Of a stretch of 64,000 nt of DNA, positions 9,655 to 48,504 are shown one piece after another; within the stretch, counting starts at the first letter, position 1, and each line of letters starts with the position of its first letter. Below the pieces are notes generated by a model. It worked only from the letters and a program-made list of their open reading frames with translations. It made no database searches and had not been told where the DNA came from. The stretch comes from Isoetes taiwanensis (taxonomy: Eukaryota; Streptophyta; Lycopodiopsida; Isoetales; Isoetaceae). The stretch spans positions 731,864 through 795,863 of the forward strand of contig JAJEKV010000042.1 of assembly GCA_021234155.1 (NCBI GenBank), written 5' to 3'. The position numbers were made by a program, and so were the translations under genes.

Positions 9655-9665
9655 AGTTTTGAAAA

Positions 9666-25000: not shown

Positions 25001-25796
25001 GACTACAGAACGCTTCTTTGGTTAACCATGAGACGTTGAACTTGAAAGGAATATTACCTGATTTCCTAGCAGAGGGGATATCTTCCAGCGTAAGCCTCTG
25101 CGGAACATGATCCGAGTGAGTGAATGCAAGATCACCTTCAACATAAGACTTATCCATAAATCCAGCAGATTTGTTGGTCAGGTAGAACCTATCAAGCAGA
25201 CAGTACACTCTATCCTGACCCTTCTGTTTGTTAGACCAAGAAAATGTAGAATTGGAGGGAGGAACTAAAGAGAAGCCTGCACTGTTGATTAGAGAAAGCC
25301 AGGCACGCTCTTCTCCTTCCTGCAGATTCCTGTGCAAACCCACTTTTTGATTCCACGTGTCAGTCATATTTAGGTCGCCCCCAAGTATCCAGTTATCAAT
25401 CACGTTCTCATGTTGGGATATCCAACTTTCAATATTATTCCACATTATTGCTCTTTCAGCAGGTTTATTGGAGGCGTAAACATTAATAAGCCCCCATTGA
25501 CAGTTATTGTTTTCAAATATAACTGACTGCCATCTGCCCCCCAATCCTGAGAAATGACTTTTCGGGGCCTGACCTTTCCAAAGAATACAGGTACCTCCCT
25601 TAGTGCCCTGAGCTGCACAACTAAAGGAGGAATATCCATTACCCACCCAACTTCCAAGAGAACTTGCCTCAAAGTCAGGGAGCCTGTGTTCCTGTAGCAT
25701 GACAATGTCCGCCTTCATTGATCTGATAGCCGCTAAGACTCTAGCACGTTTGAGTGCTCCTTTTATGCCACGCAAATTCCAAGAAATAATGATCAT
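22006..25796 (-). pseudogene. LINE-1 ORF2: endonuclease, RT, zinc finger
   Basis: Starts MIIISWNLRGIKGALKR (APE-type endonuclease), with Glu in MLQEHRLPDF, GGDLNMTDTW and SDHVP near its end. An in-frame TGA at about 24798 separates it from the linker, and a frameshift lies at about 24300. RT shows WRPIALINVLYKVIMKVLANR, KMDFRKAYDSL, GIRQGCPLAPYLF and MQYADDTFMFL. A C-terminal zf-RVT has CPLGCQESESTAHVFFC. A TAA at 22198 ends the main frame, but the same frame continues past it (NYDKAVDRIG, matching YDREWDRIG in the second LINE) to about 22006, so that stop is a lesion. Plant L1 lineage; inactive. Confidence 0.88.
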
Positions 25797-25826
25797 CCCG
25801 AAGAGGTTATGACGACAGCCCACCAT

Positions 25827-27274
25827 CCAGCCCTAGGTGCAAGGGCATATCTATGCTCCTTTCTGGCAGGGTCATATCTCCTCAGCTGGTACCAAATGGG
25901 AAGGGTCACATCAAGGGAACAGCATCTAAGAAAACATCTGGGTTCCCTTATTAGGGGAGATAAGGTTTTCAACACCAGAGAGGGTAAATGGTTTAGGGAA
26001 GTCCCCTTGTGAATGGGCCTCTTTAGACATAGTGAAGGGGGGCAACTTGAGGTACCCCTATTGACCCTAAGTGGAGAGAGTTCCCTATTGACCCAAAGGG
26101 AGAACAAATTTCTGGAAGTACTCAGGATAACGTGGAACCCCCCTTCAATAGCCTCCAGCATATATAGGGAGGAGGGGTATGATAACGGACACTTCTTTGT
26201 CCTTTTTGCAAAAGTCCAAAGTGCCCAAACTTGTGCTTTTAAAAAAGGTACCAAGGTGTCCCATAGGGGCAACCGATTCCAGATATCGATATTGATGGAA
26301 TATATCAAAAGCCTCCATGTGGGTGCCAAACCATGTGTGCTAAAATTATCATTCACAGTGATTAGAGATAGGGACGTCCTTCCCTTTCACAACCATAGAA
26401 CCCAGAATCATTCTGCTTAAAAGACTATTCGAGAAAAAGTGCCATAGAGGAGATAATATATGATTGGGAGGCAGCATATCCCCCATCAGAAGGATAAGAC
26501 CCTGCCATATATTGTTGAGGCGACCATTATGCATCTCCGTTTTAATGGTAAGAAACAAGGAGAGATAGAAATGCTTGCTTAGGGTCGGAAGAAGTGTCAC
26601 CCAAAATAGAGAAAGGGCAGCGATATCACCTTTATAGGGATTCGATTGCTCACCCCAGAAGCAGCCAGAAAACCAATTCGTTGAATATGTTTGGAAAACG
26701 GCAGCCAGAAAACCCTTTAGAACATGATTGGAAAACGACAAGGGACCCCAATGACCGTTACAATACTGTTGGCTGAGAGAGTTGCATGGCACGGTAAAGC
26801 CATCAGGGACCTTATGATCCAAGAGAAGAACATTAAGGCCATTACTATGAAACAGGCATGCTTCATATCTTTTATACCAGCACCAAACAAAGGCATTTGC
26901 AGAGCCGATTATTATGTTTTGCAGGTAGTAAGTAAGCCAAAATACTCCAGACCATATACATATAACAGGAAAGAGATCTAGTTGCACAAACCAGATAACT
27001 GCCATAACCGTAATAATGAGATTATAACAACCAGCAACCATCACCATAATTTGAATCATACTGAGCATATTATATTAATCTCTGATACAAAAAGCCTGCC
27101 TTACAGGAGCAGCCATATCTGATACAAAAGCGCTGTCTAACAAGAACAGCCATACATAATACGCCTAATGTAAGACGGATATAAGCCTGGTATCTTGTGG
27201 CTAAGAGACAAAATGGCCACAGAACTAGGAAGTATATAAAACATAAACCTTGGAAGAAGCTTCCAGCTTCAGCA
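25827..27274 (-). other. Unusually long LINE-1 inter-ORF region
   Basis: 1.45 kb between ORF1 and ORF2, where the second L1 in this window has a one-base stop/start overlap. On the coding strand it is open in two long frames: 27068-26349 (239 codons, hydrophobic, Trp-rich) and 26356-25793 (187 codons). Neither resembles a family I know. It could be a spacer, an acquired segment or a decayed insertion; no terminal repeats were found at its ends. Confidence 0.35.
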
Positions 27275-28861
27275 TTAAAGAAGACTATTACCATCTTTGT
27301 TTGCAGGGAGGATCGCGCTTCCTTGCTCCAGAGAATGCTCCAAACACACTTTTGCTATTGAAGCTTCAAAAGTGTTCCTACCTGATTTACTCCCAGTATC
27401 CTTCCCTTTCTTTCTTCCATTAAGTTTCTTAGCCATTAATGTATTGTTGCCATCAGTATTGAGGGGTTGTACCACTGTGCCCCCATCATTCATCTGGCCT
27501 GTAAGATCTGCAACCAAAAGATTAGAGGGCGCAGCAGAAATGAGAGCCTGATTGTTCTTCATCCCAGCAGACGGAGCTTCCTTGGGGCTGGCGGTAACTA
27601 GAGGTTGGGACTTCAAAATAGAAGAGCAGGGGCTCTCCTGACCAGAATCATCGCCCATCAGGCTAAATCGAGCACTGTGGAGCTGGGTTGGGGAAGCAGA
27701 GAAGGAAAGATCATGGATCAGGCAGTCACTCTTGGGCGAAGAGATACAGATTTCCCCATTGGGAGGGCCAGGTTGATCTTTTGGTTTCTCTGCAGCAGAT
27801 TCTGGAGCAGACTCTGGAGGAGCTTTCACACTCAATGACCAGCCCTCTTCAGAGGGATCGATACATTCTTCGACAAGGGCAAGTGGGCTGAATCTATTGT
27901 GACATAATAGGCCCTCGGGAGGCAGAGAGGGTTCTACAGCTGATTCAAGAGCACAGAGCTTTTCCATTGGAACAGGGGAATGCGTTGGGCTGTCAAGGGG
28001 ACAGGCCTTCATGGAGCACTCGCCCCCAAAGTCTGGGGCAACAGCCACGGTCTGCTTCTTAGTGGATTTTTTGGGATCAGTTTCCATAAATCCATCAGAG
28101 TCAATCATATGGGCCAGACTAATTTTGTCTTGAGTGTGTGATCTGTTGTGCTCACAGACCGGAGAGTGGTCTGAACATATGTGCCCAGCATGCACCCTGG
28201 CTCCACATCCAGAACAGGGGAAGGGGAGACCAGAGATAGAGAGAGTAAACTCTATTAAAGTATTATTAAAGCCCATAAAGAAAACAGAACGTGGAAGTGG
28301 CTTTAGAATATCCACTGTGATGCAGATCTTTGGGGCCTCCGAGGAGTTCCCACCCATGCATACGTACTCCCCAAGATATGAGGCAATAGCTTTGAAAGCC
28401 TTCTCTGTCCAGTACTCAGCACTAAGATCAGAGAGTGAAAACCATAATGGATAGAACAGAGCATCTGGCTTTTTGGGGTTGAAATCCGGCCTCCATTTCT
28501 GCAGCAAAACTTGGCCATTTAGACAGGTGATTATCCCCTTCTTGAAAAGAAACTGGGTTTCCTTCTCAGTTTGCAAGGTGATGAGAAAGTATAAGTTTCC
28601 CAAAGGCTGGATCCGAGGTAGGATTCTGCCACGGCATACACGCTCAACAGTCTTCTTAATCTCTGCTAAAGATGGATTACCCCTTATAATCTTAGCAATA
28701 AGGGCCTGATTATCTAGGTGGCGAATCCGGTTCGCCACCTCTGGAATACGCAAGGAGATATAAGTCTGATCACCAATATCAGGGCTTACAAAAGTATCAG
28801 CATGCTCAACGAGCAGAACAGGCTCCATAGAGGTCATGCTCAGAAATAAGTCTCCAACCAA
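27275..28861 (-). CDS. LINE-1 ORF1, DUF4283-like RNA-binding protein
   Basis: 528 residues, uninterrupted. The N-terminal half has the layout of plant L1 ORF1 proteins (DUF4283/RRM-like): GNPSLAEIKKTVERVCRG, FLITLQTEKETQFLFKKG, PLWFSLSDLSAEYWTEKAF, CITVDILKPLPRSVFF. A CCHC knuckle CSGCGARVHAGHIC follows near residue 230. The C-terminal half is Pro/Ser-rich and low-complexity. It probably binds the element RNA to form the retrotransposition particle. The second LINE has the same order and knuckle spacing. Confidence 0.82.
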   Translation of the reverse strand: MVGDLFLSMTSMEPVLLVEHADTFVSPDIGDQTYISLRIPEVANRIRHLDNQALIAKIIRGNPSLAEIKKTVERVCRGRILPRIQPLGNLYFLITLQTEKETQFLFKKGIITCLNGQVLLQKWRPDFNPKKPDALFYPLWFSLSDLSAEYWTEKAFKAIASYLGEYVCMGGNSSEAPKICITVDILKPLPRSVFFMGFNNTLIEFTLSISGLPFPCSGCGARVHAGHICSDHSPVCEHNRSHTQDKISLAHMIDSDGFMETDPKKSTKKQTVAVAPDFGGECSMKACPLDSPTHSPVPMEKLCALESAVEPSLPPEGLLCHNRFSPLALVEECIDPSEEGWSLSVKAPPESAPESAAEKPKDQPGPPNGEICISSPKSDCLIHDLSFSASPTQLHSARFSLMGDDSGQESPCSSILKSQPLVTASPKEAPSAGMKNNQALISAAPSNLLVADLTGQMNDGGTVVQPLNTDGNNTLMAKKLNGRKKGKDTGSKSGRNTFEASIAKVCLEHSLEQGSAILPANKDGNSLL

Positions 28862-29624
28862 TAAAAGGAATTATTGAGCCAAGGGCAATGCACCAAGAAG
28901 GATTGAGTAGGCTCTGTTTCCACGTTACTGAAAATCAACAGCCTGACCAATCTCCGGACAAATGCTGTATCAGCTCCCCGTATAGCAAAGCCTCCAATAC
29001 AAGAGAAATGCTCCTGCTGCAGCAGTCTTCGATCAATAATAGAATTCCACAGCTGCAATACTGGACCTTCAATGTATCCCCACCAAATGTAGTCAGTGTT
29101 CACAAGGATAATAGATCGAGTTATGGTGGAGATATCAAGCGAAAAGGAAGATGGAATGGAAAAAACAGAAGACGCAGTTGAAGCTTGAGAAGCTTGATGG
29201 CTAGAGTCAGAAGAAAAAACTAAATACTCCATGCTGAGACCACATCAGGAAGATCAGGAAGACTTGTAGAGCTCCAATGTTATGTAATCAGAGAAGGCTT
29301 CGGAGTATAGGTAAAACTTCGCAATAGGTGGTCTGTCTGCACCAAGGTAAGCAATTCTGAATTCCACTGTATCAGCAGACGGATCTTGCGTGGATGGGAG
29401 TGTTCTCCTATAAAGAAAATCTCAGGGAAAACAGATTCCTCCATCAAGAAGGCCCAAATACCCGCAGGAGTTCCCTCAAGCCACCCAGAGCAGATCTGGG
29501 AGGTGCTATAGAAGACAACAAAATATTTCGAAAGTTCCACTGGTGAACTAGACGATCCAGAGGACTGGGGAATGGCAGAGTTAGAGCAGGAGCAGGCAAT
29601 CGCAAGGGGGAGAGGCTGCCCCAT
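28840..29624 (-). other. Two small open frames in the LINE-1 5' region
   Basis: 29624-29280 (114 codons) and 29232-28840 (130 codons; overlaps ORF1 by 22 bases). Both are Ser-rich at the N-terminus and then carry a hydrophobic stretch with a W-x-EG-P core (GWLEGTPAGIW; WWGYIEGPVLQLW), so they may be diverged duplicates. No known domain recognised. They may be 5' leader ORFs or chance. Confidence 0.3.
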
Positions 29625-30645: not shown

Positions 30646-32617
30646 CCCCCACTCAGTGACAAGGAATCTTGACCCCCACTGGATGTGAGCCCAAGTGCAA
30701 GAGTGAACCTGTTGTGTTTCAGACGAGCAAGTGCTTTGGTAAGCATGTCTGTAGGCATTTGATCAGTGGGACAATACTTGAGAGAAATAACTTTGCCATG
30801 TACAAGTTTGTGGATAAAGTGGAATTGAAGGTCAATATGTTTGATCCAGCGATGGAGGGGATTATGAGCTATAGCAAGAGCACCTTGATTATCAACATGG
30901 AGTAGAGTTGCAGTATCAGCAAGTTGGAGTTTAGTGCATAAACGTTGAAGGTAGGCATGAGTAAGGGCAACATACTCAGCTTCGGTGCTGGAAAGAGAGA
31001 TGCTAGGCTATTTAAAGCTGCTCCAACTAATGGCACCCGCAACTAACAGGAAAACAAAGGCAGATATTTATTTGCAATAATGATGGTCGTCGGTCCAGTC
31101 GGCATCCGAAAAACCTTCAATGGTAAAGGAATAGGGTTGAGAAGAATAGTGAAGGCCATGGTGAATGGTTCCTGCAATATATCGAAGAACTCATTTCAAA
31201 GAGGAGCAGTGAGAGTTCTTGGGATTAGTACTGAACTGGGACAGTTTGCACAAAGGAAAGGCTAGATATGGACGAGTTGAAATTGTGGCGAAATTGATCA
31301 TGCCAAGAACACTTCGGTATTGGGAATGAATATGATGAAGCACAAGGGAGCATGGAGGATCATCAGGGAGTGGGTGAAGACCAAATTCGAGGAGAATGGA
31401 GACTGAATTACAGTTTTCCATGTGGGAAGTGCAGAGAATATCCGAGAGATACTTGGGCTATGTGAGCGAAAGAGTACCAGCAGCTTGATGATAGGAAATT
31501 TCAAGACCAAGAAAATAGTGTATGGTGCCGAGATCCTTCATGTGAAAACAAGGGTGGAGCTATAATTTAATGTCATTGAGATAGCCTCAGAAGCAGCAAC
31601 AATGAATAAGCCGTGCACATAGCATAAGATGGTGAGGAAATGAGGTTGAGTGCAAAAGTATATAATTGGGTCTGCTTGGCTATGCTGGAATCATAGTTGA
31701 AGGAGAGTCCGATCAAGACATGTGTACCAGGACCTAAATGCTTGACGAAGACCATATAAAGCTTTGTGAAGATGGCAAACTTGAGTCTGATCAGAAGAAA
31801 CGAACCTTTGAGGTTAGCATTATAGACATTCATCTGATGGATGTGGTATCGATGAAGAGTAGCATAAGCCATAATTGTTCTGAGGAGACCATACGAACAA
31901 CCGGTGCATAGGTTTCTTCAAAATCAATGCTCTCTATTTGATTAAATCCCCGTGCGACAAGACAAGTTTTAAAGTGGGCTATGAAAACATTTGAATTTAA
32001 CTTTGAAAACCCATTTGCATGAGACAACTAGACGATAGGAAGCACGAGGAACTAGGGATCAAGTGTTGGCGACATGAATTGTGTCAATCTCTTCTTGCAT
32101 TGCACGAATCCATTCAACTTTGTAGGGATTATGAGTGGCATGATAATATGTGAGGGGATCAGTAGGGAGATCTTGCGAAACAAAGATATAATCATGGAAC
32201 CAGACTCGAGGCTTGCGTGTACGAACAGGTCTGTTAGAAGCAGAAGGTGGGATGGTGGAAAGGGGAGAATCGGAAGGGAAATCTGGGGCAGCAAGACTAG
32301 AAGGTGTGGAATCGGGGAGGGATGGTGGAGTATCAGGAACATAAGGTGTAAAAGGTTCAGGTTGTGCTGAAATGGGATCAAGGGGAATTTTCAGAAGAAC
32401 AAGATTAGAAGGTAAGGGAGTGTGATGCCAAGGCAGGTGCTCCAGAAATTTAACATGGCAACTCAGAATGAGACGATGATTTTGAAGATCATAGAGCCAA
32501 TAGGCTTTGCTTGTAAGAGTGTAGCCCAAGAACATACATGGGATGGATTTAGGACCAAGTTTGGATGTGGGTTTAGGAAGATGAACAAAAACCTGACAGC
32601 CAAAAACTCTAAGATGA
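30646..32617 (-). pseudogene. Copia-2 pol 3' part: integrase end, RT, RNase H
   Basis: Read right to left: integrase C-terminal region HLRVFGCQVFVHLPK, MFLGYT, YWLYDL (32617-32450); a Pro/Ser-rich linker; RT N-part CLVARGFNQIESIDFEETYA (c.31990-31920), HQMNVYNANLKGSF, then thumb VLGMINFATISTRPYLAF; RNase H with SISLSSTEAEYVAL, DNQGALAIAHNP, KHIDLQFHFIH and TDMLTKAL before the 3' LTR. The RT YVDD box region is badly decayed. Several frameshifts. It continues the gene fragment at 46448-48504 across the large insertion. Confidence 0.85.
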
Positions 32618-32622
32618 TGAAG
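32618..32622. other. Target-site duplication of the 13.8-kb transposon (left)
   Basis: TGAAG, identical to 46443-46447 on the other side. Taking one copy out joins the Copia-2 integrase frame without loss or gain of bases. Confidence 0.8.
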
Positions 32623-32654
32623 AACTATCATTCAATTAAATTGGGATTATATCT
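32623..32654 (+). repeat. Left terminal inverted repeat
   Basis: AACTATCATTCAATTAAA then TTGGGATTATATCT. It pairs with 46412-46442 read in reverse complement, with two substitutions and one indel. Confidence 0.8.
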
Positions 32655-33538
32655 ATTCCAAAATCGCGTCGTATAAGCCTATTATTTACCTTTGTATTGA
32701 ATTAACCATGCTTTTGCACTGAGTTCATTTTCAACCTGGGAATATGCATTTTGTGTTGAAATTGAACGACATTCAAAAATACGATGCAAATCACCCATAT
32801 TATGACAGAATGTTGGCAATATAAAAAAATAAAAAATTGTATATTATTTTATACCATCATGGACGATTACGAAATTTATAGAGTAAAATAAGAAGCCTTT
32901 TTTCAATAAATAACGACAAGCAAGTGGCTACAAAACTTAGATTTTCGTAGTTCAAATCGCGCCTGGCACGATTTTGTTGGCATAAATATAGCATGATCAA
33001 ACAAAAAAACTATTTCGATTCATCATCAACAGGCGCTGAGATCCTTTTGATCATGAACAAACTATGATATGGATTCCATAGCAGATGGAGACAACATCGA
33101 AGGGATCAGGATAGAAGCGGACGGGATTCATAGCAACGACAGTCAGCCAGTCTTCAAGTTCTATGCCTCACTGGCGGCACCTATATAGAGTTCCTCGTGG
33201 TTCATCTTACAGGTAATGGAATGTGCCATAACAAGAAGAAGCAGGCGGGGGCCAAAGTCGATGGCTTGGTGATGCATATCTATTTATACCCACCTAGATT
33301 ATTGACGGTATATACATACAAATTATTGGACGTATAGCAAATTATATACATAATAGAATAATACAAAACGTATACGGAACCAATAATGCTGCTACAGTTG
33401 TATTTCGTCTCTAATAACCAGAGAAGATCAACGCCATAGAACATTGCAAAGTAACACAATATATATTCAAAAGCTTTTGTGTAAAGTATATTTCATATTC
33501 AAAATATTTATGCAAAGTATATTTTCGGTATACATATA
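32655..33538. other. Left arm of the transposon, non-coding
   Basis: AT-rich. One CGCG half-palindrome at about 32665 and one full near-palindrome at 32954-32974. No open frame of note until the HAD C-terminus ends at 33539. Confidence 0.5.
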
Positions 33539-33768
33539 TCAAAATAGTTCCCTTTCTAGAACAATTTTCTCAAAGTCCCGGTCAATTTCCCCCGTCCGAT
33601 CGAGTTGCGGGTATCGTGTTTGTATCTCTTTGACCGATTTTCCTGAAGCTATTTCTTGTAAGACACTGATAAAACGAAGTAGAAAGTCATTTGTGCTAAA
33701 CATATCAGGATGATAGGATGGCAGATTTAAGGACTGTGACTGATTGAAGCAACACTTGAGGGCGTCAT

Positions 33769-35152
33769 TTTTTTTTTTTTTTTTTTTTTTTTGGAGAAAA
33801 GGAAGTTTTTATATTTTATATAATAAAAAGTACAGAGTACAATGTTTCAGACTTCACAGAGGATTACTACAGGAGTAACCATAACCTCTTCATCCTCTAT
33901 GAACTATGAACTAAAACTTATTCAAATGAGTAACAGCAAAACAAAAGAAATATAAGATAGCTAACAGTGGTTAAAGAAACCTGATTCTCAAAATGTTGTG
34001 TCTGAGGTGCATAGTAGAGTGCTGCATTGTCGGGGTCACGGATAGCCTAAAGCTAGCTAGGCTTAGTACAAGCCCGGCCCTTGAGACTCCTCCCTAAAAG
34101 CCGGTGCGGGGATATGGAAGCTCCTGTATAGCCCCTAGCTCGGCAATCTCCACCGAAAGGGTCACCCCAGTAAGGGGAGTCTTCCACTTCCATTGTCCCA
34201 TCAAGGAGCCCATACATCCTTGATAAATAAGCACATCCATTTTGTTAATCATGGCAACTACCACCAAATCTACCTGTATACTACTTTTGAAGCAGCATAG
34301 AAGACCGGCTATACCACAAGCCATCCTTTGCACATTTTACTCTTACCGAGATACAAAGAAGTGAAATAAAGAGTCGATGCTGTAAGAAGAGCGACCGCCA
34401 CTCACGCTCATAGAAGCCGCCACCGCTTCATGGATTACGGTCTCGGCTTTACTCAAAAACTCACACGTGAATTGCATCAAATAAAATCTTTGCATTTGGG
34501 GTAGACAATCCAATTGAAGGCTGGCTAGACAAAAAATATGCCCAACCGCCGGACTCCTCCCTCAAAAAGCCGGTGCAAGATGTGTAATCTTCCTGCCTAC
34601 ATCATATCCCTAGCTCGGCTATTCTATTCAAAACAAATCCAGCAATTTATTTGCATAAAACTAGAAAGCCCCAAAAGTGCCTGGACTGTTCTTAATACAT
34701 ATTTTGTCTTTCCGCCAGCAAGAAAGGGTAAGAGTAAATCCAAGATACTTCACAGAACTGCAAGACTTTACCTCTTGAGATGAAGCTTACCCCATACTAA
34801 ACCGGAACATGAGCCTGCTTCAGTTTGATCCAGTTAGCCTGCATAAATCCCATCCATCCCAGGTCGACCCAGCCTCAAAGGAATCCTTCGAGAACTGCAA
34901 GGAAAGAGTGGGAAATGCAACCAAGACTGACCCAAAGTTGAAGATCGCCTACAAACTACATCCCTGGAAAAATCTGGAGAAAACCTGTGATAATCAATCT
35001 TGCGGTTAGAAAGCATCATGGCCTGGCATCCAACTCTAGATCTTTGCTTCTTCATGCCTCGCTGCTAATCCGGAAGCAAGGTGAAGCGGCGGTAGCCTCA
35101 CCTCCGCCACCGCCCTAGCCGCTGCCGTTGCCGCTTCCGCTTTTCATCCCCC
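33769..35152 (-). mobile_element. Poly-A retro-insertion inside the HAD-like exon
   Basis: T-run at 33769-33791 (poly-A on the minus strand) and an 11-bp target duplication GAGGGCGTCAT at 33758-33768 and 35153-35163. About 1.38 kb. The 5' end (35152) is very GC-rich with GCGGCGGTAG/CCGCCACCGCC repeats. Its 3' end style (TATAAAAACTTCC before poly-A) resembles the LINE end at 60230. Two related segments, 34075-34145 and 34548-34620 (CTCCTCCCTMAAAAGCCGGTGC...CCCTAGCTCGGC), form an internal direct repeat. No protein recognised: a truncated LINE, a SINE-like unit or a processed transcript. Confidence 0.75.
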
Positions 35153-35600
35153 GAGGGCGTCATCATCAACCATGATCATGCCTTCCTTTTCCTCAACACC
35201 GAGAGCATCCATCATAGTGCGCAAGCATTTCACAAATATCGTTTTGCCTGTCAGATCCTTAGAGTTTGTGAATGAAGCACATTTGCTTTGCTCCCAGATG
35301 GACGCCCAATCTCTATTTAGCTCAGGCACTACTCTCAAAACTTACTGTATATTTCTATATTCTATAGATGACCAAATTGCAAAAGGCCGAGTCCAACATC
35401 TCTTTTAGATAAGAGCACGGGTAAACATGTTTGGTACGTATTTCAAATGGTTTCTGTGCATATTATGACTTATCAAATGTTGCTTTAGGTAACGTTCTGC
35501 ATAGCACACCATTCAAATCAAAGACCAATATTTTTTGGGAAGCCGAATTATGTCTATAACGCAAACAGATACGTATGAGATGAAAGAAATGGAACAAGAA

Positions 35601-35693
35601 AACACGCCAGGCGCGATTTATATAAAGAAGCATGTCAACAAATTCTAAAAATATGAAACCAAAGGAAACTCTAAATCGCGCCAGGCGCGATTT
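35601..35693. repeat. CGCG palindromes in the exon 3/4 intron
   Basis: 35601-35619 (CACGCCAGGCGCGATTT) and 35673-35693, the latter a perfect palindrome AATCGCGCC-A-GGCGCGATT extended by one base each side. Both lie in the 197-base gap between exon 3 and exon 4 of the cargo gene. Confidence 0.85.
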
Positions 35694-37750
35694 CCATATG
35701 CGTATCATTAGTAAAATGCATGGATAAGACAACGAGCTTGGTCACAATACCTTTCTTCTTCATCAATCCTCGTGGTATCTTCTTCTGTTGCTTCCTTATT
35801 ATGAGTTGTCTCCGGTCTGCTAGAAGCATCAACCACATCAGTTGAGATCTGTATAGTTTGAACTATGGTTGATAGTTCATTACTCTTTACGCTAACCTGG
35901 CTAGAGCTTTCAGATTTCGAATCTCGATCCCTGTCATATCTTCATCCTTGTTATTTTCACCCCGTTCTTTATCTTCATCTACAAGGATGTTCACAGGCAT
36001 GTCGAACGTTTCGACAGGATCCGAAACCAGTGTCTGCTCTTTGGTGATATCCATATTGATGCTAGCCAGGTGTCGTCTCATAGCCTCCCGTCCTTTAGTC
36101 AAATTTGCAGGTATTTCAGCCTTAAATCTAGAAGCTTTGCTTTTTGCACTGTCGATAAGACCCCTAGGTGCTTCCTCTAGCACTTTCTCAAAAAAGAGCT
36201 CTAAGAAATGCTTGGCTCGATCATCGGAGATGATGCTCTCGCAGTTGCTAACTTCAAAGCTTCCCTACCGATATAACCTCCGACGTGAGGCTCCCAGCAA
36301 GTTGTCCCCAATGGGCAAAATGCTTCAATGAGATAATGAGAAAGGGCCATCAAGAACCCATTCTTGTTTAGCCTCCCCTTATGTGACGTTAGGAGCTCAT
36401 ACTTAATATGCTCCACAAGAATGGGGTCCGCCTGGTTTTCTTCCTCATCCTACTCTTCAAGTTCTACTTGTTCCACGTTCACAACATCCTTCCCCTAATC
36501 TTCAGTAGTTTGCTCAAGATAGAAGACGTTTCGCAAGAGGGGTTCATCTAGCTGATAGCACTGCTATGCAAGTTTTTTGCCTTCTGGTTTTCCCTTAAGC
36601 CTTTCATATTCCTTATCATCCATCATGGCTATCATAATGATTAGCACATGAGATATTTTACTTTCTGTGCTAAACTCACTGTCCTTGTTTTCATCTATAA
36701 GGATTGCTTGCCGATCACTTTAATACATTCTTAATCCTTTGCAGCAGATAGAGCATATGCATAGGACATGTCGGAGGGGCACATTGTGACGATTGTGTAA
36801 TGCATTTCTGTCGTAAAACCACCGCATGTATTATAGAAGGTATTATAGTTATCAAGTGACCATCTGGTGCCTCGGCTATCAAGCATGAAGAGTTTGATAT
36901 CGTGCGGTCCTTTACCCACATCTGGCATTGCACATTTAAAACCAATGGACACTTGGTAAAAAAATGTGGATTCTTCTTCCGGGGTCTGCTTCATCAATGC
37001 GACTTTTCTTTCCAAGTTGGATGCCACTTTCGTGTGAATCCCATGCAGGTTTGCAACTTTTTCAACTTCTGCTGTTTGACAAAGTCTTTTGACTAAAAAA
37101 CATACTTCTTCAGATCATCGTTGGAGACATTGAATTTTTACATTAGTCCTAGCTTCGACAATGACTCCCCTGTAAGCCTTTGTAATTCCTCTCCAACTGC
37201 CTTCCTGAGCACTCGAATATTTTTGAGTTGGTCGCAGGCGTCTTCAAATGATACCTTATCCTTCGCTACAAAACTTTTCTTGTAAAGGACTTCATTTCTG
37301 ATGCACCTGTCCAGAAGCGAGATCAGTTATTCATCGTCTAATCCCTGGGCCTTCCTCATCTCTGTGACATGGAGGTCGAATATTGATGTGTCGACAGGAG
37401 GAAATCTGCCTTGTGAATCATACAACTTCTCCACGTAAGCATCCCAGAATTCATTCCATTTTTCCCAGATCTGGTCAGAAGCAAAAATTATTTTGCAGGC
37501 ATCCTTGGGTACAGTAGGGGCTTTGGAAGCATCTCCCATTTCATCTCCTTTTTTTTTCTTCAGTCTGGTGCTCTTACTCTTGTCCTATATTATAGTCTGA
37601 CAAAGTGTCCTTTCTAGCAATTTGAATTTAGCACTTTTGGACTGACCTGTCTGGTCAGCATTGGTTTCCAATATTCTATCCATTGGTTACGAGCATGCCG
37701 CAATTGCTAGGGACTGCAAAAAATAAATTTGTTGGTTTCAGATTAACAAC

Positions 37751-37981
37751 AAATCGCGCCAGGCACGATTTGCGTATTTTGAAAAGAGACTGCTTTCACT
37801 GGTTGAAGCACTCCCATTTCTGAAAATGCAAATCGCGTCCGGCGCGATTTCAGAATAGAAGGAAAATCGCGCTACTCTGAAAGGAAACGGCTTTCATTGG
37901 TTGAAGCACTCTCGTTTCTGAATATGCAAATCGCGCCTAGCGCGATTTCAAAATGGAAGAAAATCGCGTCAGGCGCGATTT
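37751..37981. repeat. Cluster of four CGCG palindromes
   Basis: Near-perfect 21-bp palindromes at 37751-37771, 37830-37850, 37928-37948 and 37961-37981, with a half copy at about 37863. They alternate with a repeated spacer (TTTCAYTGGTTGAAGCACTC). They sit in the presumed exon 2/3 intron. Confidence 0.9.
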
Positions 37982-39275
37982 GACTAAGCAGAAACCGGTT
38001 AACTAGTGCTACTCAATCAAACGTATCGAGTTTCTGAATAGGCGAATCATGCTTGCAAATACAAAAACAAAAAAGAGGGAAGAAAGAGGTACCTTTTGTA
38101 CAGAAACGTTTTTCCCATGTCGTTAAGAAGTGCATTGATTTCGGCTAGCTCGGCAGGTGTTGTTTAGCACTCAGGAACCGGCAGTTTCTGACCAAATACA
38201 ACCTAAGAACAACTGATTTCCAGTATTTTGTGTCTTCCGAATCAGAACCTTCTGAGCCTCAATTGAGTGTTGGCCATCTATTATCATGAAATATACGTCT
38301 TGATTGTCGATGAAGTCATCCAGCTTGTTCCACATGAGTACCTTCCTCGTCTTCGTATCGTAAGGCACTACATCTACAAGCATTGGTACCTGCCCTGGAT
38401 TTTCGATCATGTTGTTGACTATCTACAAGGAGTGCTGCTTGTCGTATCTTCTACGGACATAAATAGCTTTAGTGGACCTGAAAAGCCTATCGACGTGGAC
38501 GGGATGGGTGAAGCTAAGGCCCAGTGGATATTTGTCAGCATATTTTTTGAGCTTGCTCATCGCCTCCAACTGCCTGGCCTTGTCATGTAAGGCCTGTTGT
38601 AACTTCTGTAGTGTCCCTGCATCTAGAACTTGCATCTTCCTTGTCCTTCAATGCCTGCATGTAGACACTGCCTGAGGGCCTCGTGCTGATGGCTCGTCGC
38701 ACAGTTGAAAGCCCTTCGCATATTCTTTTAGGCGTCAATGGCTCGCCAATTGTCCAACCAAATTTGAACAGGGTGTCGGCAGTGTCGTCTGATCTTATGA
38801 CAGTCTCTTTAAAACAACTATAACTGCACCGATTAATCTTCTTTAGGATCTTCTTATTTTTTTTGACTCACTTCAACTAACACTGAACAATATGAATCGT
38901 CATGTTCTTCGCATGTGATAACAATTCCTTGCTTCTTCATTTGATCAGTCTCTTTTACCCTAGACATGAAAATAAGATCTATCTTCCCACTAGTCTTGAA
39001 GATCTTGACATACCAGTCTGACCCCTCTATAAGATCTTCTTCTGAACATGGAGGTTCTACCTGAGCATTTATTGTTCCAGATGTTTCTTCTAACATCAAC
39101 ACATGTTGTAGGTCTGTAAGGTAACGTCTTCATCTGTCCTTTGCCTTTTCTGGGCTGAAGATGTTTGACTGAGTTTGGTTTTCCTTTTGATTGTCCTTTG
39201 TGTTCCTGCAGAATGATAGCATAACATTAATGTTGAAATGCGAAAATATATGGTAACTTGCAATGTATGCAACAA

Positions 39276-39442
39276 AAACGCGCTTGGCGCGCTTTGAAAC
39301 TTGAGAGATTATAATCTTAGTCTAAATTGCGCCAGGGGCGTTTTATCCAAAACAAAAGGGGTTTCTCAATATAGATTCCAACGATAAGAAACTAACATAA
39401 TGCTTGGAATATATGCAACAAACACGCGCTTGACACACTTTA
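39276..39442. repeat. Cluster of CGCG palindromes, TTGG-centred variant
   Basis: 39276-39296 (AAACGCGCTTGGCGCGCTTT), 39324-39344 (AATTGCGCCAGGGGCGTTTT) and a decayed copy at 39421-39442. They lie in the intron between exons 1 and 2. Confidence 0.85.
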
Positions 39443-39897
39443 AAACCGGCCTTAGAGATTTTAATCTTCATCTGAAAGCATAACTAACTATAGAAAGCAC
39501 AATTAACTACGGAAGACTGTTCAACTAACTATAGAAGACTAAAAATAGCGGATATAGAAATGAACGAAAACACAATATGAAGAAATATCCAAAAAATAAA
39601 GATATCTCGTCATAGCATATATTTGCATACATCTTGGGACATATGAACTGAAGTATTAGAGGACATATACTTCTTAGCGGATAATAACTCTAGTATTAAA
39701 GAAAGACATCCTGAAAACCTAATGTAATTATGTAAGGAGGGTCACAGAAACAAAATATATAAGAAAAACTGATGACTACCTGAACCGCTAGCTGGATTAG
39801 TGCTTTCAGCTTGTTCAGCAAGATCCTGGGTTGCTTTGACATATCGCCCACCTCTACCTGTGCCTCGGCCGCGGCTGCCAGATCCTCCAGACGCCAT

Positions 39898-40946
39898 AGA
39901 ACTGCAAGTTCGGAAGATATGTTATGAGACTGGAGGTTTGGTTCAAATTTATATGTATGGATTGATAATCTAAGCCGTCATATTCGAACTTTCATTTCAA
40001 ATTCTCGTCACTTTAAAATTATACCGCCTTAAGTAACCGCCCGTCTCGCTCATTTACATTTTTTAAATGTGCTTTTCTTTTTATTGTAATTTCAAGAAAA
40101 TAATTAATTCTTATTTTCAAGGAACGCATATGTGGCAAGCACTTCCACCTAATCGACCACCTAATCGACCAAGATCATCGACCCGCTTCCGATAGTGTCT
40201 TGAGCGCCTTCAATTGACCATCCCATGTTGGCTGAACTACGGTGAGCGTCATTCCATTCTGAATATGCACAGCTTCGGCCAGTTTTTTTTTCATGCCAAT
40301 TCTATCATTCTGGTTGTTTATCAGTGTCGGAGAAGAATATTATCTTTTAACAGCAAACGTGAAGCGCCGAGTAGGATTATGTAAAGTCGAAGATCTGAAT
40401 CCAAGTTCTATGTGCCATGGTGTTCCTCTTGGAAACAGTTTCTATAAGATTTCGATTATAAATTGCAATTATGAGGATGAGGCTCTTCCATGAAGACATC
40501 CCAATGGCGATACAGTTGGCGAAAGCGTGGGCACATTTGTAGCATGGCCAAAAGACATCTGAAAAAAGGTATGTGTATAACTATTGACTACTGAAACATA
40601 ATCTGAATATATCATAACATGTGCGTCATGGTGTGAATATTGAATTCTTTGATGCTCTTTAGCCAGTATTATCAACCCCAAAAACCACGTTAATCAAAAT
40701 ATGTGTAGTTTCTTGGGGTTGGTCAAACTGGCTAGAAGGCATCAAAGGATTTCAATGTTTCCGACATTGCATATAAAAGAAAGCATAATAAAAGTCTTGT
40801 GAGACAAAAGTCTGCGGTACAAAATTGCGCCAAGCGGGAGATTGTATTAATATTCACAAAATAAAATGTACATATTTTTTTTTTGTGTCAAAATGCGCCA
40901 AGCGCGAGTTTTTTCCAAACTAACATAGAGTCACGTGGCCACTTTA
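39898..40946. other. Spacer between the two minus-strand cargo frames
   Basis: AT-rich with small chance frames (for example 40681-40469). It may hold the promoter of the 39897 gene. Nothing recognised. Confidence 0.4.
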
Positions 40947-41453
40947 TCACTTTGATATGACACCATCATCCCATTCATTGGGAATATCGAGTCTCCATAT
41001 CAGAGTATCCCGTCGACCTCTGGCCTTCCTAATCATATCCACATATTTATTTGTTGGCATGAGATACACCAAGAGCATGAGGAGTCGCATAAACCCCGTG
41101 ATGCGATGGTAGCATTCCCATGGCCTTACATAAAGACTGTCAAATGGCTTATCGACCTCTTTTTGTAGGTTTTGAACGGCACAATTAAGACGTAACTTGT
41201 ACAGGGTCCAGCGTTGATTGTCGTCTAAAGGAAGCGTACTTGAACGAGAATCAGCCATGTGAAATGCACTAGAACGAGAGAATAAATAATATTCCTCTCG
41301 TTAGAAAATAATCTGAAAAGTTTTATGTTCAAAACGCGTCAGGCGCGTTTTCTAAAGGGTGTTTTTTTTTTTTTAACTACACGTGCTTGGCGCGTTTTAA
41401 ATAAATTTGCAGGAAACGGAACGGGCAAAATTAAAATGCGCCAAGCGCGATTT
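40822..41453. repeat. Five CGCG palindromes around the 103-codon frame
   Basis: Copies at about 40822-40843, 40890-40912, 41332-41350 (AACGCGTCAGGCGCGTTT), 41379-41398 and 41433-41453. They surround the open frame at 40947-41258 on both sides. Confidence 0.85.
40947..41258 (-). CDS. Unrecognised 103-residue protein
   Basis: Open from ATG to stop: MADSRSSTLPLDDNQRWTLY, then CYHRITGFMRLLMLLVYLMP and ending in DIPNEWDDGVISK. One hydrophobic segment around residues 55-70, otherwise charged. It starts about 1.3 kb upstream of, and on the same strand as, the ParB-like gene, with palindromes on both sides, so it may be another cargo gene or a 5' exon. No family recognised. It is the only undamaged-looking frame in the transposon. 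Confidence 0.4.
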   Translation of the reverse strand: MADSRSSTLPLDDNQRWTLYKLRLNCAVQNLQKEVDKPFDSLYVRPWECYHRITGFMRLLMLLVYLMPTNKYVDMIRKARGRRDTLIWRLDIPNEWDDGVISK

Positions 41454-41629
41454 CGTCCATACTAATGTATCATAGTATAGAAAAAAAAAACTAGCATATG
41501 ATACATAGATCTGCTTATGGGCAGAGAGCATTACTTACCAGATTTTATATGACAAAGAGGTGAGCCACGAACTTGAATAGCAAGGTTCAAATTTGGATCT
41601 GCAAGGATGAAATAATAAAAGCAGCTACG

Positions 41630-41950
<321 letters not shown>

Positions 41951-42567
41951 CAAAATTAGAACAGAACTATATTATTTTGTTCTTTTTCTATATATGAGTG
42001 TTCTTTCAAATACCTAGAAATAAGAACAGAGAAAGACCTAGAATAGAAACCATACTTGTTCTTCAAAAACCTAGAAATAAGAACAGTAGAAGACCTAGGA
42101 TAAAAACATCTGAACTAGAACTAGAACTAGAATAAGAATAAGAGGACTGCAATAAGAATAAGAATAAGAGAACTAGAATATAGGAATAAGATAGAATAGG
42201 AGAACTAGAAATAAGAACAGAAATATCAGAGTTTAATAAAGCTTGTCAGATTAGAGATTAAATAACAGAGATTAATCAACCTCTTCGAGTTTTTGAGCCG
42301 ATATTTGAAGAGCCTCAGAGAAACCAAAAGCCTCAGAGAAACCAAAAGCCACAGTCGAAAAAGCCAGAATTTGAGATTGAAAACAAGCACCAAAGCTTCA
42401 GATCGATTTCAAGCGCCTCAATTTTAAGCAAAAGTTCGAAAGAAAAGTTCGAGATTGAAAGAGAAAATTTCGATGGAGAAAAGTTCGAACAGAAATAATA
42501 ACTGCTTTAAAAAATTCGTACCATGCCATAATAACTGCCGCGAAAATTTATTACTATATATTTATAA

Positions 42568-43354
42568 TATCTAAAATGTTAGAGGTTTCATTTAGAGGTT
42601 TTATTTATATATAATGTTATAGGTTAGAAGTTAGAAGGTTCTACATATGTTAGAAGTCATTACAAAGTTATGAAGCTAGGTTTATATGTAAAATTCAATA
42701 GATGTAATTTAAGATCCTTAGATGTAATAGAAATGAAATGCCATCATAAACAAAGATGCATACATATAGATAGATAGTATCAAAGAAGTTATTATAGAAA
42801 TTATCAAAGAAGTCCCTCTTATAATTTTTTATAGAGCATGCTTTCCTTTATTTATTAAAAAAAGTATTCTTTCATTTAATACTTAAAATGTTAGAGGTTT
42901 TATTTAGAGGTTTTATTTATATATAATGTTATATATGAGAAGTTAGAAGGTTCTACATATGTTAAAGTCATTACAAAGTTATAAATCTAGGCTCATATGT
43001 AAGCCTTTATACCCATTACTATTAATTTTACCTATATAATTTCTAAAGTATTTTTTCTAGAAAATATATCCTAGAAAATAATTATATATAAATGTTGAGG
43101 AAAATAACTTGGGCAATCCTATTATATAAATAGAATGAGAACATAGAATAATACATATGAGGAAATTGATAACATGCATAGCCTTATGGTGCCTTAGATG
43201 TAATAGAAATGAAATGCCATCATAAACAAAGATGCATACATATAGATAGATAATATCAAAGAAGTTATTATAGAAGTTATCAAAGAAATCCCTCTTACAA
43301 TTTTTTATAAAGTATGCCTTCCTTTATTAATTAAAAAAATATGTTTTCATTTAA
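42568..43354. repeat. Duplicated AT-rich block upstream of the transposase
   Basis: Segment A (42568-42690: AATGTTAGAGGTTT...GTTCTACATATGTTA) recurs at 42882-43003. Segment B (42718-42880: TTAGATGTAATAGAAATGAA...CTTTCATTTAA) recurs at 43193-43354. Copies are about 92 percent alike by eye. They end just before the transposase-like gene, so they could hold its promoter. Confidence 0.85.
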
Positions 43355-43425
43355 GAACATGTTGGAAAGATGTTTTTTGGATATATTAACTTATTCTATG
43401 TTTGTATGTATTTTAGGTCAATGGC

Positions 43426-46247
43426 ATGCAACATGCTAAAAAAAATGCCCCCAATGATGATGACCAAGGCAAGGAAAAATCCCTAAATAATGAAGATGAT
43501 GCCCAAGGAAAGGAAAAGTCTCCAAATAATGTTGATGATGGCAAAGGAAAGGAAAAGACCCCAAATGAAAAGGATGATGCCAAAGGAAAGGAAAGGAAAT
43601 TGTACTTTATACTCGGGTCGATTGGAAAAACAAAAAGGTCAAGATCCTGCATGAATGCAACAGAGAGGTAGTAGGAGAAGGGATTGTTGTTCTAACAGAT
43701 TCTATCAATGTTGTCAATGATGAAAGATTAAGGGAGGACAGGTTAGGTGTGGCAATCTCAAAATTATATGACAATTGGAAGGAAGAGGGGTCAGGCAAAC
43801 AACAATGCCTTGCTTGTATGAAGCAACTAGAGGTTGCAACTATTGTGGCATGGTCTAGGGACATTATTCAACTGGAGAGGAACTACATGTTTCTTATAGA
43901 TGCAGAACCATTGTCAATAATGTTCACACAGTGTAGCAAGGGGCCACTTCCAACTTTCAAAAGTGAATGTTGTTGGGCCTCTTGTATCAGAATATTCACA
44001 ATAGATGAGATGGTGGGAGCAAGAGCTATATATCAGGAACATAAGTGTGATAGTAGGAGGAATTTCATGTACACTATATTTGGCAATGCAACTCAGGATG
44101 AAAGATCAAAGAAGAAAATATTTCCATTGAACGGAAAGTGGATATGTTCAAAAGCATGGATGGCTATACATGGAATTCCAACCTCTTCCTGGGACAACTG
44201 GCAAAAAAAACATGAAAATGGCAGTAGAATTGCATTACATGGGAACACTGGCCTGGTAAGGCCTACCTCAAGAACTATAGCTGCAAAGGAAATATTTGAA
44301 AGATATGTGGATTTCAATACAAAAAACATGCCACATAAGAGTAAGAAAGATGAGCAGGGTAGAGTTGTTGTTAAAAAGAGATTGCCATCCCACTGTACCC
44401 AGAAGAGCATATTAGAGAATAAATGCATTGCTTCGGGAACTTGGAGTGGCCTCTATATCCCAGCCCAGTTTTAGTAGGCTATGGAATAAGCATTTCAAGC
44501 ATGTGACCATAGCAACTTCAAACAACTTTGCAAAGTGCAATTTATGTGCTAAGCTGAAGGAGACACTAGATAAGACTGTGCAACCAAGTCTAAGAGCTAA
44601 GATAAGGGAACATATGAAGGACCATATGACATATCAACTATCATGTAGATCAACTTATTGGATGTGTAGGACCTTATCTGCAATGGAACCTAATAACTAT
44701 CTGTGTATTATACATGATAAAATGGACCAACAAAAGACTTGCCTTCCACAATTCAAGTACATACCTAAGTTATGTGGAAGATCATACCCTTTGCAGATTT
44801 CAATTGACTGGGGCAATCTTGCATGGGCAGTCTCAAACCTACTATGGACATTTCAGACATTGGGAGTATCATGAGGTGTTCAAGAAACTATGAGAATGGT
44901 TGTAATGGTCACCTCCAGGATCCTACAGCTAACCAGGCACTATATAGTGCATTGTTGGATGGAAACCCTAATAGTATTGAAAAGTTTAGCAAGGCAAGGT
45001 TTAGGAGGCATGGACCTAATGAACATGTTGGAGCTTCAATATCTCGTGCTAAACCTCAAGATCTGCCTAGAAAGCTCCTCTTGCAACTTGATAATTGTGC
45101 TGGTCAAAATAAGAATAGGTGGATGTTCTCTTTCCTATCCTACTTAACAGCTGTGGGTACTTTTGAAAGAGTCAATTTGGGGTTCCTAATGCTCGGACAT
45201 GCTCAGGAGGATGTGGATACATTGTTTGGAAAATATAGTCATGTCTTGAGACAGCAGACATTGACCAACTTTCCTAGGCTACTGAAAATATTTCATGGAT
45301 GTACTACTCCATCTCCTATAGGATCTCTCATAGAAGAAGTGCCTGGTTGGAAGAGTTTTGTGGATGGTTATGCTCTCGACGTGGAAAATCATTCGAGACT
45401 TCTTCAATTCACTTTTTGGGTGAGAGAAGGGATTCCAATCATGGAATGGAAAATGAGACCTTCAGAGGAGAAGTGGAGAGGTGGGGCAGAAATTTGGCAC
45501 AGGGATGCGAATGGCAAGTCTATGATACCTCCAAGTCAACCAAAAGCTCTAAAATCAACTAAAGAAGTGAAGCAATTGGGATTGACTAAGGATGACATCA
45601 ATGACTACATAACTAATTCGGATGAGACTAATCGTGCATTGATAGATTACTCGAAGAAGGTGATTAACTTGTTGGATGAGGTAAACACATCATGAGAAGA
45701 GCTGGAAGAAGGATGGTTCCCTTAAAGTAGGTGGAAAACATTAGCAGGTGCTGACGAAGATGATGGTACTACTAGTAGCATTGGTAAGGCATATGCTCCT
45801 CCTCAATCTGACAAACACTATGTTGGCCCTAAGAAGGATAGGCCAAAATATCTAGGCATGGATTGTTATGAACCTTCTACTGACGTGGAGTGCCACCAAT
45901 TTGTAGAAGTAAAACCAGCAGATCTAGAGACCTATCTAGTGTGGTTGGGATACACCATCTCGGATATTTGCAAAGAAGAAGGTAATGTTAACTTCAATAA
46001 GGTGTGTTTGAAATGGTGGTGTCCAGTGCATCAGTTCAGTAATGTCACTGATAAAGAAAGATATTCATATTGTTGGACAAAGAGGTGGAGGAGAAATCCT
46101 TGTGATCCTGATCTTTGGTTAGACATTGAAACCGTATTGTACTCATGGACTCCAAAAACTATTCTAGATAGAAATGTGAGAGTTACAATACCTCAGGATG
46201 TAAGGAATAAGGCTATCATATCATTGGGGATACTGGAGGAAAAATGA
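43426..46247 (+). pseudogene. DUF7869-like (DDE-type?) transposase relic
   Basis: Likely mobilised the 13.8-kb element. Four N-terminal units of the form NxDDxxGKEKS (43450-43600) are followed, after a frameshift, by a segment like plant transposase-associated domains (VLTDSINVVNDERLREDRL). The middle region has ISQPSFSRLWNKHFKHV, a Cys pair CNLCAKLK and CIIHDKMDQQKT. Then come LLLQLDNCAGQNKNRW (c.45078-45125) and FLMLGHAQEDVDTLFGKYS (c.45185-45240). The three Asp-bearing blocks look like a DDE catalytic triad (inference). The C-terminal domain (45858-46247) is Trp/Cys-rich (LKWWCPVHQF). Frameshifts lie near 43605, 44430 and 44850, and stops near 45694 and 45724. The family name is from memory. 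Confidence 0.6.
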
Positions 46248-46411
46248 AACTATGTAAATATGCTTTCTTCATTAATATGTATCAGTCACAGCCATGAAAA
46301 GTTGTGTACTATATGAGTAGTGTGATATATGATTTTGTAATATGAAGTTAAGGTGTGTGAATTTAATCAAGTTATTAAAAACTTGCAATTCAAAATGGTA
46401 TCCCAAAATCA

Positions 46412-46442
46412 AGACATAATCCCAATTTACTTGAATGATGGT
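46412..46442 (-). repeat. Right terminal inverted repeat
   Basis: Reverse complement reads ACCATCATTCAAGTAAAT then TGGGATTATGTCT, pairing with 32623-32654. It is followed by the TGAAG duplication at 46443-46447. Confidence 0.8.
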
Positions 46443-46447
46443 TGAAG

Positions 46448-48504
46448 GGAAATTTGCTTATGAGTCCAGATTTCTTCGGGTTTCTGATGATTGAGACTCC
46501 GATGTGGCAAATGATTCAGCAGGTACACAGTAGTATGGGCTGTCTCTCTCTAAAATTTGAGTGGTACATGCATGCCAAATAAAAGAGTGCGAATCATCTC
46601 AAGTAAGGTGCGATTGGCACGCTCAACTCCCCCATTCTGCTCTAGAGAGTAAGGAATAGAGAAATCATATTATACACCATGTTGAGAACAACAGTGCTAA
46701 AGATTCTGGAGTTGGATTCTCCTTCCCCATTAGTGCGAAGTGTAACTAGTTTAGATCCACTCAAGGGGGGTTCACTTTTGGGTGCCATACAATGTGCCTG
46801 AGTGACTTGTAGGGGGGTTTTTTGGACCCATTTCCACACGTATACGACGGAGTTAAGGGGGTTTTTGACCACTACTTGGAGTAAGTTTTGTATGGAAGGG
46901 GTCAAATTTGCCTTTCAAGAACCGTATACGGGGGTGTTTTTGGTCACCCTCTGCACGCACATGGCGTACCCCTTTTTGCATAAGTACATCCCCCGGGGAT
47001 CCACTGATGCATTCTGCAGAGGTGTGAAAAGATGTGAAGCAAGAGAATGTATCACTTTTGTGGGTCAAAAGATATAGAAATAGCTTTCCACTACAATCGT
47101 CAAGAAATATGAGGAAGTATTTATTACCATCAAAGATGGGTTCAGAAAAAAGGCCACAGAGATCGCTATGCACAAGCTGTAGTAGTTTGGTGGCAGAGCT
47201 GATGATTGGGAAATGCAGAAGGCATGGAGGAGATGCAAGCACGTTCAGGTGGAGATACAATATCAAGTTGACAGAGATTATCAATTTTGGTACCAGCGAG
47301 AAGGATGTGGCCATGAGCATTCTGAATTTTGCAATGATCAGAGAAGAAATGATCTTGAAGCCGGGCAGAGGGGAGTTTGCTGACAGAAAGAAGCTGCTTG
47401 TAGAGATCAGGCATATGAAGAACTTCGAGAGTGAGTTTTGGAATACCTGAGTGAAGGTGAAGAAGAACATTATTAGTGGCTATGCCATGTTGAGAATTGT
47501 TATCACCCATAAGAACAAGTCGTGGAGTAGACAAAGGATGATAAGAAGTGAGGATGTGACAGAGGAGTAACATGTGGCAGGTTGCTCCAGAATCCAAATA
47601 CCATGATTAGAGAGAGAGAGATACTGGATTCTTAAGCGTTGAACAAGAACTCAACAGGTGATTGTGGAGTGGCCAAGGTAGTTGAAAATTTGTCTTGTTC
47701 TTGAACAAGATTTCCATGCTTATGGATAAGATTCCCTTGCTCAATGTTGGTGGGGCGCTTGACTGGAGTAGGGGCAGTGCATTTGTTTGCAAAATGCCCA
47801 GCCTTGTGGTATCAATAGCATGTCATAGTATTGTAGTCAATCTTTGGGTGTCTGGGCTTAGAATCCATTAGCATGACTGAATCAGATGAAGGTCTGTGCT
47901 GGCCTTGATGAAGTGCCTCCGCCTTAATCTGATCTATAGTGACTCAAAAGAATAATATGAGAAACACCCTTCTAAATTGATGATGAAGCCCTCATAGGAT
48001 CGTGGAAGGCTGTTGAGAAGAAGACATACTTTTTCATCATTGGGGCATCAAGATCATCCAACATAGTTTTCATGGAGCAAATGTGAGAAATGGCATCTCC
48101 TCCTTCAGATAGGCGGAGTTCATATAGAGATTTTTGGAGGGCCAGGCGATTGCCTGCCATCTTGGAGGCATAGTAATTATCAAGAACAGCTAATATCTTG
48201 CTTGCAGTTATGGCTCTTTTTACCAATCTTGCAGGCATATCGCTCAGGCTAGTACAAATTAGTAACCAAGCCTTGCGGCCTTTTTCCAATGCACCAAGAT
48301 TCTCATTCGCCCCATCAAGGACGATTTCAATGTTACTGTTGCTAGAAGAAGCAGGAGCCATGTTTGTAGCAAAAACAATATCCCATAATTTCTTGTCTTC
48401 CAATATTATTTTTGGCGCCAACGCCACATTCGATAGTCTTTGCCTTCAAAACGAGGCAAAAGACGCCAGTCAAAGAAAGAAGAAAGATTCATGGCTGGAT
48501 CCAT
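46448..48504 (-). pseudogene. Copia-2 gag, protease, integrase N-part
   Basis: ATG at 48504 starts gag (NLSSFFDWRLLPRFEGKDY). After a frameshift it continues to LWDIVFATNMAP and KSLYELRLSEGGDAISHI. A decayed zinc knuckle (YHKAGHFANKC) lies near 47790-47825. Protease: MDSGATCHM at 47597. Pre-integrase zone, then integrase LQLVHSDLCGLFSEP and FLIFLDDCSGKLFLYL (c.47170-47060). The Glu block QNGGVERANRT lies near 46620 and the frame ends at the transposon insertion, where KQISL is cut. Many frameshifts and stops. Confidence 0.82.

Follow-up and report, generated by a model that had tools for sequence, protein, structure and literature searches.

A multi-copy, probably Sola-type transposon of the quillwort Isoetes taiwanensis with a large second gene under constraint

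As far as the accessible excerpts of the sources cited here go, Sola transposons encode a DDD transposase, create 4-bp target duplications, have inverted ends of 11-1124 bp, and are usually 2-9 kb long, with some above 15 kb; they occur in moss and are uncommon in flowering plants (PMC10741241). A Sola1 element is recorded in Physcomitrella (PMC9033089), and amoebae are known to have Sola2 elements that carry an additional gene (PMC3627910). Ginger transposons, according to the same excerpts, have a transposase with a Gypsy-type integrase (PMC10741241). Here we describe a transposon of the quillwort Isoetes taiwanensis that lies at positions 32623-46443 of a 64,000-nucleotide stretch of genomic DNA (C1048:731864-795863; "the window"). 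This unit is one copy of a multi-copy family. We consider the family most likely to be a large cut-and-paste transposon of the Sola type, 12-13 kb long (13.8 kb in the window, with a later insertion), whose cargo gene has been kept by selection.

The window copy ends in two 32-nt inverted arms that are 91% complementary, with 13,757 nt between them (Table 1). We searched the I. taiwanensis genome (1,658,258,908 bases in 1110 contigs) with a 600-base left-end query, in which base 24 corresponds to 32623, and with a right-end query in which base 577 corresponds to 46443. The best 40 of 1419 first-look candidates (left) and of 1925 (right) were scored, so copy numbers are lower bounds. Among the matches listed besides the window itself, 33 of 39 at the left start exactly at 32623 and the other 6 are at most 4 bases off; at the right, 23 of 41 end exactly at 46443, 9 at query bases 578-581 (1-4 bases past 46443), and 9 elsewhere. 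Thus, the genome search that a preliminary description of this locus had recommended did find multiple copies whose borders coincide with those of the window copy, and some of them are less broken. The left border of that description stands, while its right border, 46442, is corrected to 46443.

The target duplication is the 4-bp sequence GAAG, and a 4-bp duplication is perfect in all six end pairs that we compared (the window and five siblings). For two siblings, both ends were read through in fetched sequence (C1028, TAAT; C953, TATA). For the other three, the ends were paired by position only (C434, AATT; C1045, GCAT; C907, TTGT); these ends are about 25-47 kb apart, presumably because of nested insertions between them, and for the right end in C907 two left ends were available, with identical flanks. 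The 5-bp direct repeat TGAAG that had originally been proposed is rejected because the match in the siblings stops at 4 bp; its T belongs to the right repeat, as the final base, and this fifth base does not match in C1028, C953, or C434. In C907, the left ends L047 and L048 (C907:31844088-31855673) lie 11.5 kb apart and have the same 40 flanking bases, a local duplication.

The unit is inserted into a Copia element, and removing the unit and one GAAG in silico restores an open Copia integrase frame over the junction (KQISLHHLRVFGC), which is the result expected of an empty site. (Stops are present elsewhere in the Copia flanks, away from the rejoined junction.) Taken by itself, the window copy, in which both genes are broken, could pass for a transposase relic next to some unrelated large gene, bounded by inverted repeats that arose by chance. 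However, in two siblings, C1028 (13,071 bp) and C953 (12,187 bp), the fetched sequence spans the whole element, and these complete copies share the ends of the window copy, contain both gene regions, and are each flanked by a 4-bp duplication of their own. The sibling copies refute a chance juxtaposition, which we view as extremely improbable, and the restored Copia frame argues against chance inverted repeats. The initial proposal of a single inserted unit with inverted ends is therefore borne out by the arms, the common borders, and the rejoined frame.

The transposase gene in the window has several frameshifts, while in C1028 it is one stop-to-stop frame of 784 amino acids (L037:194-2545) that is frame-broken near its 3' end. 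The stretch 44808-45692 matches the DUF7869 domain (PF25273), which agrees with the earlier reading of a DUF7869-like transposase relic with a DNCxxQNKN motif. In Pfam scans of the transposase pieces and of two proteins, P0001 and P0002, DUF7869 is the only match above its curated cut-off, and the Gypsy-type integrase that would indicate a Ginger transposase is absent; the window's transposase piece is 37% identical to P0001. DUF7869 proteins of the mosses Physcomitrium and Ceratodon have the same PF25273 domain. In an alignment of relatives with 60 rows, D425 is invariant and D302 and D465 are near-invariant, but the glutamate at 464 is not. An RNase H-like core is predicted for this family by structural modeling, and a Foldseek search with the transposase model found no match at E = 0.001. 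Our literature search found no paper on DUF7869, and a search with the transposase motif returned no paper that, by its title, concerned transposases.

We infer that the element is probably Sola-type rather than a proven Sola. It shares 4-bp duplications, a DDD transposase, and terminal inverted repeats with Sola as described in the published excerpts. The Sola2-Fanzor chimeras of Dictyostelium and Polysphondylium likewise combine a Sola-type transposase with an extra gene and have 4-bp duplications; in the excerpt that describes them, the cargo is Fanzor1 and the duplications are AT-rich, whereas the quillwort element also has GAAG and GCAT (PMC3627910). In the literature searched, we found no Sola with a NIF-bearing cargo or a palindrome array. 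DUF7869 transposons might instead be a superfamily distinct from Sola, with 4-bp duplications by coincidence. Two points speak for such a superfamily: our literature search found no paper on DUF7869, and our element exceeds the usual Sola size. Because the DDD columns, the duplications, and the moss relatives all agree with the published excerpts on Sola, we regard a separate superfamily as possible and the less likely of the two. The preliminary statement that no named plant superfamily fits was accordingly too strong, although the gene set as a whole did match nothing in the searches that we made.

The cargo gene lies on the minus strand and extends leftwards from about 39.9 kb, so that it and the transposase are divergent (back-to-back) and not facing each other as had been suggested. 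Among 20 left-end copies that were fetched over 10 kb, 15 contain cargo-region sequence, which supports the earlier view that the large gene belongs to the unit, and cargo exon pieces recur in many of the fetched copies. The other 5 (L020, L023, L027, L031, and L033) diverge from the element after 0.5-0.9 kb, which suggests that they are sister families or truncations. In three copies (C1018, C1030, and C907:37374374) that were traced 5-7.5 kb further, the right end was not reached. The copy in C1030 has, within it or next to it, a second, diverged DUF7869 transposase gene on the other strand (L039, about 16716.2-16718.9 kb).

In C1028, the cargo exons lie in long stop-to-stop frames of 382, 183, 373, and 232 codons. 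One of its exons contains a NIF domain (PF03031; L035:1283-1978; 60.6 bits versus a cut-off of 21.8, E = 1.9e-16); the window copy's own broken pieces gave no match when scanned by themselves against Pfam. The NIF exon also matches HAD families, all below their cut-offs. NIF/FCP1 phosphatases have a DxD catalytic signature. In the cargo the corresponding sequence reads FDLNG, both in the window copy and in each of the 11 fetched copies whose alignment covers the site, and because the second aspartate is replaced by asparagine, phosphatase activity is doubtful. Of three domains originally proposed for the cargo, only the HAD-like one is confirmed, as a NIF-like domain. The ParB-like and methyltransferase-like ones were not confirmed: searches of Pfam, PHROGs, NCBIfam, PADLOC, and PDB sequences, and of phages by tblastn, gave no match of significance to either region. 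The ParB-like piece, folded as a single sequence, gave a low-confidence model (pLDDT of 40.8). DNA methyltransferases acting on N6 or N4 have DPPY and FxGxG motifs, and we did not see DPPY by eye in the translated cargo exons. This is a failure to confirm rather than a disproof. A 1,222-amino-acid composite of the cargo had no homolog at E = 0.001 among the proteins of 672-2138 amino acids in a set of 5.8 billion (the 7985 candidates that share the most words were scored). The 382- and 373-amino-acid frames had no phage match, and for the latter frame none of 600 pattern-matching stretches in viral contigs was confirmed as a relative.

Part of the window's cargo region is not cargo. Positions 33769-35152 (1.38 kb) are a retrocopy that inserted into the window copy's cargo gene and does not belong to the transposon proper. 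We rejected this segment as cargo sequence because it starts with a 25-T tract, has GAGGGCGTCAT on both sides as an 11-bp duplication (positions 33758 and 35153), and is missing from all 10 of the copies inspected at the junction. Four pieces of the retrocopy were scanned against Pfam for its source, with no match.

We compared each copy to C1028 using the ratio of nonsynonymous to synonymous divergence (dN/dS); comparisons of under 60 codons were dropped, and stops were skipped and counted (41, 28, and 21 for cargo exons E2, E4, and E5, and 56 for the transposase). The ratios were 0.11-0.49 for E2 (n = 11), 0.13-0.34 for E4 (n = 12), and 0.14-0.52 for E5 (n = 14; a fifteenth copy, L020, was too diverged to give a value), and in 18 of 23 comparisons over two cargo exons they were 0.15-0.35. 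Pooled ratios of nonsynonymous to synonymous proportions (pN/pS) were 0.38, 0.28, and 0.39, respectively. For the transposase, dN/dS was 0.31-0.76 in 9 of 11 comparisons, and the pooled value, which includes the diverged paralog in C1030, was 0.60. With frames and counts taken from the alignment of copies, third codon positions of the matching frames account for about 0.46-0.56 of the changes in the clearest coding bins, as compared to 0.33-0.43 in most others. The cargo gene has evolved under constraint, and this selection continued while the copies diverged. For the window copy and, to a lesser degree, for C953, the cargo shows more synonymous divergence than the transposase does; because the two genes differ in this way, recombination between element lineages is likely.

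The element also contains an array of a 21-bp palindrome. Its core, with up to 2 mismatches, occurs 13 times in the window copy and never in the other 50 kb of the window. The same core finds 18 palindromes in each of C1028 and C953, and the longer form, when up to 5 substitutions are allowed, finds 20 in each; they occupy corresponding places in the copies. In C1028, 19 of the 20 are outside the exon ranges that we used, and the remaining one overlaps the E5 frame at its margin. As single-stranded DNA, a palindrome cluster folds far better than shuffled sequences do (z = -8.6). Genome-wide, AAATCGCGCCWGGCGCGATTT with at most 1 mismatch is present at 1553 sites, versus none for the reversed control. 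Of 50 sites listed, which are the first in contig order and not a random sample, 7 are within 14 kb of a known element end. We fetched 10 other sites with 250 bp on each side, and 9 have element-like sequence, with a longest match at 84-90% identity in 5 and at 71-74% in 4; the more diverged sequences indicate older or sister families. The match covers the palindrome at 8 of the 9 sites and is about 130 bp off at the ninth (L056), and the tenth (L057) has no element-like sequence at E = 1e-6 in the DNA fetched. The palindrome is largely restricted to the transposon family. Outside the palindromes, the three elements have a CpG observed/expected ratio of 0.51-0.58, and the remainder of the window has 0.39; the difference would be consistent with weaker methylation or a younger age of the elements.

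NIF-like proteins are ordinary host proteins, and the cargo might be a recently captured host gene, a passenger with no function for the element. The different synonymous divergence of the cargo and transposase halves, and a diverged NIF-like piece (49% identity) in L020, favor a passenger. In contrast, cargo-region sequence is present in most of the fetched copies, selection on it went on during their divergence, and the element-specific palindromes are at corresponding places. We consider a passenger unlikely and prefer a cargo that was kept by selection.

In the reading that we favor, the DUF7869 transposase, with its RNase H-like DDD core, would cut at the 32-nt inverted ends and insert the element into 4-bp staggered targets. 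The divergent second gene would encode a protein at least about 1,000 residues long, with the NIF-like domain towards its C-terminus, and it has travelled with the element and been kept by selection. Both this cut-and-paste chemistry and the splice structure of the cargo are predictions from sequence. The cargo protein may help the element, possibly through an action on the palindromes that the element contains. Because the palindromes are largely restricted to the family and mostly outside exons and the cargo is constrained, we tentatively suggest a specific role, which is still improbable on balance: a self-encoded regulator that would bind the CpG-rich palindromes in the introns and other non-coding parts of the element and protect the family from silencing or otherwise mark its own copies. 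The VANDAL/Hiun elements of Arabidopsis are Mutator-like and encode VANC anti-silencing proteins. Like them, the quillwort element combines a second element-encoded protein with many short motifs in non-coding parts.

Other repeats were noted in the window. A long AGAT tetranucleotide repeat with related tandem units (41637-41950) lies in the intergenic region between the cargo and the transposase, and long open frames in the surroundings of the transposon, at 9663-13627, 22201-28870, and 53211-58977, resemble by eye one Copia element and two elements of the LINE type.

Table 1. Coordinates of the transposon and its insertion site in the window
Feature	Positions	Strand	Evidence or remark
Host Copia, downstream part at insertion site	32059..32622	-	rejoined frame
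Target site duplication GAAG, left copy	32619..32622	.	siblings have different perfect 4-bp duplications
Left terminal inverted repeat (32 nt)	32623..32654	+	arm complementarity; border common to sibling copies
13 palindrome copies (core CGCGCCWGGCGCG, full AAATCGCGCCWGGCGCGATTT)	span 32958..41449	.	0.05 expected
Palindrome core positions	32958, 35603, 35677, 37755, 37834, 37932, 37965, 39279, 39328, 40894, 41335, 41382, 41437		
Cargo coding region past retrocopy (FLLRFISVLQEI...LERELF)	33542..33757	-	
Later nested insertion: retrocopy, 25-T tract (minus-strand poly-A)	33769..35152	-	11-bp GAGGGCGTCAT flanks
Cargo NIF/FCP1 phosphatase-like region, starts RHNSASQKILVFDLNGVLC	35153..35555	-	broken up by retrocopy
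Cargo middle exons	35711..37584	-	frame-broken in window copy; 373-aa C1028 open frame covers part; includes the region originally read as methyltransferase-like, which was not confirmed
Cargo exon piece, DGQHSIEAQ motif	38174..38867	-	in-frame stop and frame change in window copy; originally read as ParB-like, which was not confirmed
Cargo exon piece, within 382-aa open frame of C1028	38857..39129	-	third-position excess
Probable first cargo exon (MASGGSGSRGRG...)	39769..39897	-	putative; 3' limit approximate, splice sites predicted
DUF7869 DDD transposase gene	43426..46247	+	several frameshifts in window copy
DUF7869 domain (PF25273), motifs DNCAGQNKN and HAQED	45051..45452	+	Pfam E 2.3e-30
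Right terminal inverted repeat (32 nt)	46412..46443	-	arm complementarity; border common to sibling copies
Target site duplication GAAG, right copy	46444..46447	.	restored Copia junction
Host Copia integrase, upstream part at insertion site	46448..47479	-	rejoined frame

To our knowledge, few plant cut-and-paste transposons have a large, long-conserved second gene, and the quillwort element provides a multi-copy example from a lycophyte. It also ties DUF7869, an unnamed domain, to a transposase that has a predicted RNase H-like DDD core, genuine ends, and target duplications of 4 bp. With the palindrome array, one can test directly whether the second protein recognizes its own element, a question that bears on how plant transposons escape silencing. 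If the cargo does prove to be such a regulator, a Sola-type transposon of plants would carry both a protein and the sites on which it acts, as one protein-plus-sites system.
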